NCBI RefSeq assembly: GCF_039233145.1
Contig: NZ_CP136419.1
Location: 470,001-534,000 of the forward strand
Reading direction: 5' to 3'
DNA length: 64,000 nt
Source: Moorella humiferrea
GTDB taxonomy: Bacteria; Bacillota; DSM-521; Neomoorellales; Neomoorellaceae
Part shown: one piece after another, positions 44,023-44,871 of the stretch
How the letters are laid out: each line of letters starts with the position of its first letter
Numbering within the stretch: position 1 is the first letter of the stretch
Notes under the pieces: model-generated
Database searches by the model: none
The model's input: only the letters and a program-made list of their open reading frames with translations
What the model was told of the DNA's origin: nothing
Made by a program: the position numbers and the translations under genes

Positions 44023-44142
44023 ATTGCCGGGCATATATTTTAATGTATTTTTAAAGTGACGTTAATACAATTATAACTCCTGCATGTTAATATACAGGTG
44101 AGCAAAGCCCTCTGACCTCCTTTTTAAATATAAATTTCCTAC

Positions 44143-44175
44143 CACACCCGGAATTAGCCGGGTTGTTTTTTTATT
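44143..44175 (+). terminator. Terminator at the end of the hydroxy-acid operon
   Basis: ACACCCGG, loop AATTAG, CCGGGTTGT followed by a run of T. Confidence 0.82.
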
Positions 44176-44177
44176 TT

Positions 44178-44206
44178 GCAGGAAAAAAGGTATTGATGTC
44201 GAATAG
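44178..44206 (+). promoter_or_regulatory. Sigma-H-type promoter of the GEMM riboswitch transcript
   Basis: GCAGGAAAA, 11 bases, GTCGAATAG, matching RnAGGAwWW-N11-RnnGAATww except the last base. The overlapping TGTCGAA is also a perfect Spo0A-box core. Confidence 0.6.
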
Positions 44207-44224
44207 CGTAATAAAAAGTAAAAT

Positions 44225-44317
44225 GTTACCGCTAAAGGCAAACCCCACCGAAAGGGGGGGACGCAAAGCCATGGGTCTAAGGCTTTTTAAGCTATGATCG
44301 CCAGGCTGCCGGTACCT
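44225..44317 (+). promoter_or_regulatory. Cyclic di-GMP-I (GEMM-I) riboswitch aptamer
   Basis: The aptamer has the conserved GEMM core: CTAAAGGCAAAC, a CGAAAGG tetraloop hairpin (CCCC-ACCGAAAGG-GGGG), GGACGCAAAGCC, then GGGTCTAAGG, and closes with CCAGGCTGCCGGTA. P1 forms between TACCG (44227-44231) and CGGTA (44310-44314). The base equivalent to G20 of the Vibrio Vc2 aptamer appears to be G, favouring c-di-GMP over cGAMP. It is followed by a terminator, so the switch probably works by transcription attenuation of the small gene at 44427. Confidence 0.9.
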
Positions 44318-44349
44318 TGATGCTGATTTTTTATTAAGCATTGAGTTTC

Positions 44350-44388
44350 AGGGCGGCCTTAAGTTTTCGCGCCGCCCTTAATTTTTTA
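44350..44388 (+). terminator. Terminator of the riboswitch expression platform
   Basis: AGGGCGGC (44350-44357) pairs with GCCGCCCT (44371-44378), then a run of T. Confidence 0.85.
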
Positions 44389-44426
44389 GTAGCATTGGGG
44401 CCCGCTCACAGGAAGGGGATTACCGG

Positions 44427-44633
44427 ATGTCATGCAGGGAAAGGCTTATAAACCTGGAAGTATTGGAAGCCCTTTTGGACGATTACCTGTCTCGTAAAAG
44501 TGTGTCAGCGCCGTATAAACGCTTTCTTTTGCGGATGATTGAGGGTCAGGTGGAAATCCTCGTCCATAATCTTTTACAAAAGGTTGATGATACAATAATG
44601 CATAACTACAAAAATTGGCGGCAGAAAGCTTGA
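44427..44633 (+). CDS. 68-residue orphan protein controlled by the c-di-GMP riboswitch
   Basis: ATG start behind AGGAAGGGG. The product, MSCRERLINLEVLEALLDDYL through SAPYKRFLLRMIEGQVEILVHNLLQ, is predicted to be two or three amphipathic helices with no membrane segment. I do not recognise a family. The heptad-like Leu/Ile spacing suggests a small dimer or partner-binding peptide. It is the only gene between the GEMM riboswitch and the tRNA-Gly promoter, so its expression should respond to c-di-GMP and, from the promoter, to sigma-H (inference). Confidence 0.65.
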   Translation: MSCRERLINLEVLEALLDDYLSRKSVSAPYKRFLLRMIEGQVEILVHNLLQKVDDTIMHNYKNWRQKA

Positions 44634-44658
44634 CAGGACCGGTGCTATCTGCTAAGAT
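44630..44658 (+). promoter_or_regulatory. Sigma-A promoter of tRNA-Gly
   Basis: TTGACA (44630-44635), 17 bases, TAAGAT (44653-44658). The -35 overlaps the stop codon of the preceding small gene. Confidence 0.85.
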
Positions 44659-44689: not shown

Positions 44690-44764
44690 GCGGAAGTAGC
44701 TCAGTGGTAGAGCATCGCCTTGCCAAGGCGAGGGTCGCGGGTTCAAATCCCGTCTTCCGCTCCA
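44690..44764 (+). tRNA. tRNA-Gly (anticodon GCC)
   Basis: Acceptor GCGGAAG/CTTCCGC, anticodon stem TCGCC/GGCGA with loop TTGCCAA, T-loop GTTCAAA, encoded CCA. Confidence 0.97.
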
Positions 44765-44841: not shown

Positions 44842-44871
44842 GCAGGAAAAGGTAATGGCAACGGCGAAATA
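44842..44871 (+). promoter_or_regulatory. Sigma-H-like promoter upstream of tig
   Basis: GCAGGAAAA, 12 bases, GGCGAAATA; full -35 match, one mismatch in the -10. Confidence 0.4.

Follow-up and report, generated by a model that had tools for sequence, protein, structure and literature searches.

A c-di-GMP-I riboswitch ahead of a gene for a small, Moorella-restricted protein with a predicted helical-hairpin fold

INTRODUCTION

What does a bacterium regulate when it places a gene of only 68 codons behind a riboswitch of the c-di-GMP-I (GEMM-I) class? This question is raised by a short interval of the window (the whole stretch of DNA that was analysed, 64,000 nucleotides), which comes from a genome assembled as a single contig of 2.67 Mb, with Moorella species as its nearest named relatives. 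The first-pass annotation had described the interval as a sigma-H-type promoter, a near-canonical c-di-GMP-I aptamer, a recognisable expression platform and, as the single gene ahead of the next promoter, a tiny helical protein without a known family. It had also suspected that this protein might be a new c-di-GMP effector, that the promoter contains a Spo0A box and that the gene is linked with entry into sporulation. Analysis of the locus and its relatives confirmed the described architecture; the Spo0A box and the sporulation link were not borne out.

RESULTS AND DISCUSSION

Promoter and layout of the transcription unit

The sigma-H promoter consensus pairs AGGAWWW with RNNGAAT at a set distance, and the promoter ahead of the aptamer (Table 1) matches both elements and the distance between them. 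The window holds four matches to the pattern CAGGAW-N12-15-GNCGAAW, for an expectation of 0.16, and a stricter sigma-H pattern occurred six times genome-wide against none for the reversed control, in agreement with the sigma-H-type assignment. AGGA and GTCGAAT are retained together in the small-gene promoter of five of eight species. The -35 element reads AGTA in G003 and the -10 element GTAGAAT in G002, while the -35 element of G009 has been replaced and adjoins a transposase gene. Sigma-H control of this locus is plausible in most species. A second sigma-H-type motif, CAGGAAAAGGTAATGGCAACGGCGAAA, is located ahead of tig (window 44843–44869, + strand).

The small gene is the sole gene of its unit, because a promoter of the TTGACA-17-TAAGAT type overlaps its end. 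Downstream of the tRNA-Gly gene served by that promoter lie tig (identified by Pfam) and then clpP, clpX and a lon-type gene, the last three recognised by eye from the translated frames. The tRNA-Gly gene is absent from G008 and G007, in which the TTGACA..TAAGAT promoter persists and is followed by a downstream hairpin (L018 1765–1830 and L019 1930–1990).

Orthologues having the full leader carry a Shine-Dalgarno-like GGAAGGGG or GGAGGG. In four species, a 14-codon frame (e.g. MNKTIGLLSDGLPG) behind a strong Shine-Dalgarno sequence extends, in another reading frame, over the start of the small gene (L013, L014, L015 and L017, positions -28 to +17 relative to that start), and translational coupling to the small gene is possible. 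A shorter spacer in G003 brings the ATG of this frame into the frame of the small gene, and the window has no such ATG. On the other side of the sigma-H-type promoter, at 44096–44170 (+ strand) of the window, lies AGCAAAGCCCTCTGACCTCC, present as one identical copy in 10 of 11 Moorella genomes. It is flanked by conserved sequence on its 5' side and by a terminator (ACCCGG..CCGGGT followed by T7) on its 3' side, and is retained despite differing neighbours (crcB in G005, G006 and G010). The region has no Rfam match and is a candidate small RNA with an anti-Shine-Dalgarno-like CCUCC.

Table 1. Positions of the features discussed; coordinates refer to the window unless a locus or genome handle is given.
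Feature	Position	Strand	Remarks
Sigma-H-type promoter GCAGGAAAAAAGGTATTGATGTCGAAT	44178–44204	+	-35 AGGAAAA, -10 GTCGAAT; CAGGAAAAAAGGTATTGATGTCGAAT = 44179–44204
c-di-GMP-I (GEMM-I) riboswitch aptamer	44227–44313	+	RF01051; GG at c-di-GMP-type recognition position, GAAA tetraloop
Aptamer 3' strand AGGCUGCC	44303–44310	+	Predicted antiterminator, 8 bp with the 5' arm of the terminator
GGCGGCCU	44352–44359	+	Predicted partner of the aptamer 3' strand, doubling as 5' arm of the terminator
Intrinsic terminator	44351–44387	+	GGGCGGC 44351–44357 / GCCGCCC 44371–44377, U run TTAATTTTTT 44378–44387
Shine-Dalgarno sequence AGGAAGGGG	44410–44418	+	8 nt ahead of ATG
Orphan gene, 68 codons (68 aa)	44427–44633	+	Moorella-restricted family
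Next promoter, TTGACA-17-TAAGAT	44630–44658		Sigma-A-type; serves tRNA-Gly 44690–44761
Second tiny protein	L011 1738–1935 = G000:C1:1126567–1126761		Also L138–L143

Identity of the aptamer and its probable ligand

The aptamer matched the RF01051 covariance model over its full length (model positions 1–87 of 87), scoring 82 bits where the gathering threshold is 35, with an E-value of 1.3e-14, and c-di-GMP-I was the best-scoring member of the Rfam clan. In the Rfam alignment, AAAGGCAAACC falls on the GG that the consensus conserves, which places a G (c-di-GMP type), not an A (cGAMP type), at the equivalent of Vc2 G20. This position is described as a factor in discriminating between cyclic dinucleotides (PMC9262584). 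The AAA preceding the GG had suggested an A20-type (cGAMP) aptamer; this was rejected on the alignment, which shows the conserved recognition position to be the GG.

Ten GGDEF matches were found in the genome, and the motif was readable in eight of them (GHxxGD in seven, GHxxGN in one; loci L119 and L121 had no readable GHxxGx motif). cGAMP synthases have a Ser in this motif; none of the eight readable motifs had such a Ser. The recognition GG and the Asp/Asn-type GGDEF motifs make c-di-GMP the likely ligand.

Terminator and predicted switching

The expression platform comprises a terminator and a conserved competing antiterminator predicted from the leaders. Corresponding terminator hairpins were found by sequence and folding in the leaders of all seven species with an intact leader. 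A duplex can form between the aptamer 3' strand AUCGCCAGGCUGCC and the terminator's 5' arm, which reads GGCGGCCUUUGGCGAU or near it in most species. This antiterminator pairing is preserved in all seven species, including G008, in which U replaces C in the aptamer strand opposite G, and G004, in which A replaces G in the arm opposite U. For six species, only 0–30 of 500 dinucleotide-shuffled platforms reached the energy of the duplex between the aptamer 3' strand and the platform; for the window leader the figure was 92 of 500. Folding the seven leaders to a consensus gave the alternative state, in which the aptamer 5' strand CCGCUAAAGGC, containing the conserved GG, forms 10 pairs with the terminator arm. 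These comparisons suggest that the aptamer core can act as an alternative partner of the terminator 5' arm, a pattern well supported in six of the seven species and weaker in the window. The single-sequence minimum-energy fold of the window leader is the aptamer plus the terminator, with no antiterminator seen as a minimum; since, in addition, the window antiterminator is weaker than those of its relatives, its switching range is uncertain.

The polarity of the platform was judged by cross-species comparison, not from the single-sequence fold of the window, and folding predicts an OFF switch. It stays a prediction because the seven species are related and their covariation is small. GEMM-I riboswitches are known in either polarity and include a cGAMP subclass (PMC9262584, PMC6274999), so the RNA might instead act as an ON switch or sense 3',3'-cGAMP. 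Such a reading is highly improbable in view of the recognition GG, the clan assignment and the Asp/Asn-type motifs described above, and of the capture of the terminator arm itself by the free aptamer strands in the predicted folds.

A small protein family confined to Moorella

Homologues of the small protein were found in 10 of 11 Moorella genomes, including that of the window. The complete Moorella genome G010 has no homologue, though aptamers and chemoreceptors are present in it. No homologue was found in the 50 other genomes of the search among relatives, nor in the rest of the class, and none in plasmids, phages or viral contigs. When one genome per species was scanned, the matches came from M. 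mulderi, M. stamsii, M. sulfitireducens and M. thermoacetica together with one Clostridia metagenome-assembled genome (MAG). Profile matches outside Moorella (E-values of 0.03–1) fell on antisense or out-of-frame stretches of other genes and were judged to be chance. The dN/dS ratio was 0.07–0.31 for informative pairs (the first 54 codons of seven orthologues). These data indicate that the 68-codon frame is real and under purifying selection within the genus; its conservation in related genomes, which the first-pass annotation had named as a test of its reading, was confirmed. Ten positions are identical throughout the ten members (N9, L16, Y20, L21, L34, G40, Q41, I44, H47 and L50), and the C-terminal part is variable.

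Neither Pfam nor NCBIfam has a model that matches the small protein; for Pfam, this holds for all ten members even at E-values up to 10. Matches to PHROGs had E-values of 0.056 or worse and were disregarded. AlphaFold2, run with six sequences, predicted a short helix (residues 10–22) and a long helix (28–67) with a mean pLDDT of 83 and a pTM of 0.60, a model in which the protein is a helical hairpin. Structural comparison returned generic long-helix matches: the best Foldseek E-value was 0.43, and VIA-align gave Z-scores of at most 6.4, to unrelated helical proteins. Neither search yielded a match above what helical proteins would be expected to give, and no family was assigned; the hairpin is too generic to indicate a function. 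By sequence comparison, the protein appears to represent a new family confined, as far as seen, to the genus Moorella.

c-di-GMP-I control across the genus

Comparison of the leaders revealed an aptamer directly 5' of the gene in the window genome (G000) and in six orthologues, that is, in all seven intact leaders at the tig locus, including those of M. mulderi, M. stamsii and M. sulfitireducens. In the M. thermoacetica-type genomes G005 and G006 (the latter M. thermoacetica DSM 21394), the homologue lies at another locus, where it starts inside the stop codon of a gene for a methyl-accepting chemotaxis protein (MCP) with dCache_1, HAMP and MCPsignal domains. The leader of this MCP gene contains a c-di-GMP-I aptamer that scores 89–90 bits, the top score in the genus, and is clearly unlike the tig-locus aptamer in sequence; the protein family has therefore met c-di-GMP-I control in two settings. 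The promoter of the MCP operon in M. thermoacetica is of the sigma-A type (TTGCAA-17-TATAAT). The MCP frame of the operon is frameshifted in G006 (L101 1475–3450) and intact in G005. The link with the MCP is drawn from one lineage, represented by these two closely related genomes.

The MAG G007 (84% complete, 180 contigs) lacks the 3' half of the aptamer together with the terminator; its promoter and the 5' aptamer half run directly into the gene (L019 1440–1500), a loss that would make the gene independent of c-di-GMP. Across the leaders compared, c-di-GMP-I control of the gene is a conserved trait.

Possible roles of the small protein

The sigma-H-type promoter and the predicted hairpin raise the question of sporulation. 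Sda and Spo0E have a helical hairpin topology, and a hairpin of this kind, expressed from a sigma-H promoter at low c-di-GMP, might act on a kinase or the phosphorelay as a regulator of sporulation entry. Against such a role stand the failure of all ten members to match any Pfam family even at an E-value of 10, PDB profile matches that include neither Sda nor Spo0E, the sigma-A-type promoter above the M. thermoacetica homologue and the altered -35 elements of G003 and G009. Homology to Sda or Spo0E was rejected, with no support from Pfam or PDB profiles and neither protein among the structural matches. The TGTCGAA suspected to be a Spo0A box belongs to the -10 element of the promoter, and five of the six sigma-H-type promoters in the genome have a T before GTCGAAT, giving TGTCGAAT; being contained in the -10 element and common to these promoters, it is not separate evidence for Spo0A. 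We regard the sporulation link as weak and a sporulation-entry regulator as distinctly improbable.

The other targets of the riboswitch class in this genome point elsewhere. The genome has 11 aptamers in total, and the targets of the others include four chemoreceptors, a FlgB-type rod protein, a T2SSF/PilC-type (type IV pilus) protein, two HD-domain genes, one of them preceded by a 92-codon frame for which no family was recognised, and an exported protein bearing a copper-amine-oxidase N domain. Another tiny protein (65–72 aa), unrelated to the first, is encoded between two c-di-GMP-I aptamers, 5' of a chemoreceptor, and its relatives in G003 and G001 also adjoin c-di-GMP-I aptamers. The aptamer targets of the genome and the chemoreceptor operon of M. 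thermoacetica favour, by association, a chemosensory or motility accessory as the most likely role of the small protein.

As a possible but doubtful alternative, the protein may be a factor particular to this lineage that serves a different purpose (stress, cell surface or translation), and the MCP operon of M. thermoacetica would then reflect chance relocation beside a riboswitch-controlled gene. This alternative would fit the single MCP association in two related genomes, the varying gene neighbours between species and the lack of recognisable relatives of the family; chance placement would not, however, favour a relocated copy that is once more under a c-di-GMP-I aptamer and that overlaps the stop codon of the MCP gene. 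Returning to the chemosensory or motility accessory, a more specific version would make the protein the first representative of a group of tiny c-di-GMP-gated chemosensory adaptors, expressed only at low c-di-GMP, that bind and tune a chemoreceptor or the CheA/CheW array and, in one lineage, are translationally coupled to their own receptor. So detailed a proposal is unlikely to be right in full.

Proposed mechanism

We propose that the transcript from the sigma-H-type promoter would open with the c-di-GMP-I riboswitch. At low c-di-GMP, strands of the aptamer core would seize the 5' arm of the terminator, allowing readthrough and production of the small protein. Binding of c-di-GMP would lock the aptamer and free the 5' arm, so that the terminator forms and the gene is switched off. 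The protein, as a helical hairpin, may then serve as an accessory or adaptor of the chemosensory or motility programme under the same messenger. Within this explanation, it is established what the aptamer is and that the gene, its coding frame and its c-di-GMP-I control are conserved; to the explanation as a whole, an OFF riboswitch governing a Moorella-only hairpin protein with an accessory role in chemosensing or motility, we assign a probability of about 0.5.

Comparison with known systems

Our literature search found no paper joining Moorella, c-di-GMP and riboswitches. Here, the riboswitch places a protein family that carries no annotation within the c-di-GMP response of these acetogens, and the persistence of c-di-GMP-I control after relocation beside a chemoreceptor makes its function directly testable. 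The M. thermoacetica MCP operon (L100/L101) shares the protein family and the c-di-GMP-I aptamer class with the window, and differs in that the small gene comes second after the chemoreceptor, the aptamer has another sequence and the promoter is of the sigma-A type.

GEMM control of a single tiny protein, which had seemed exceptional at first reading, has precedents in Clostridioides difficile, where five c-di-GMP-I riboswitches precede small hypothetical proteins (CD1424, CD1981.2, CD1990.3, CD2309 and CD3368.2; PMC11477304). One of them, CD2309, is repressed by c-di-GMP, its full-length RNA falling as c-di-GMP rises (PMC3649979). In Cd1 of the C. difficile flgB operon, a c-di-GMP-I aptamer followed by a terminator forms an OFF switch (PMC9262584). 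The Moorella switch resembles Cd1 and CD2309 in its predicted OFF polarity, whereas Cd1 governs a large flagellar operon and not a single small gene. It shares with the C. difficile small-protein riboswitches the aptamer class and a small uncharacterised protein downstream, but its protein appears to form a separate family, judging by the one-genome-per-species scan. In this comparison the riboswitch is ordinary, and the protein family is the new part.
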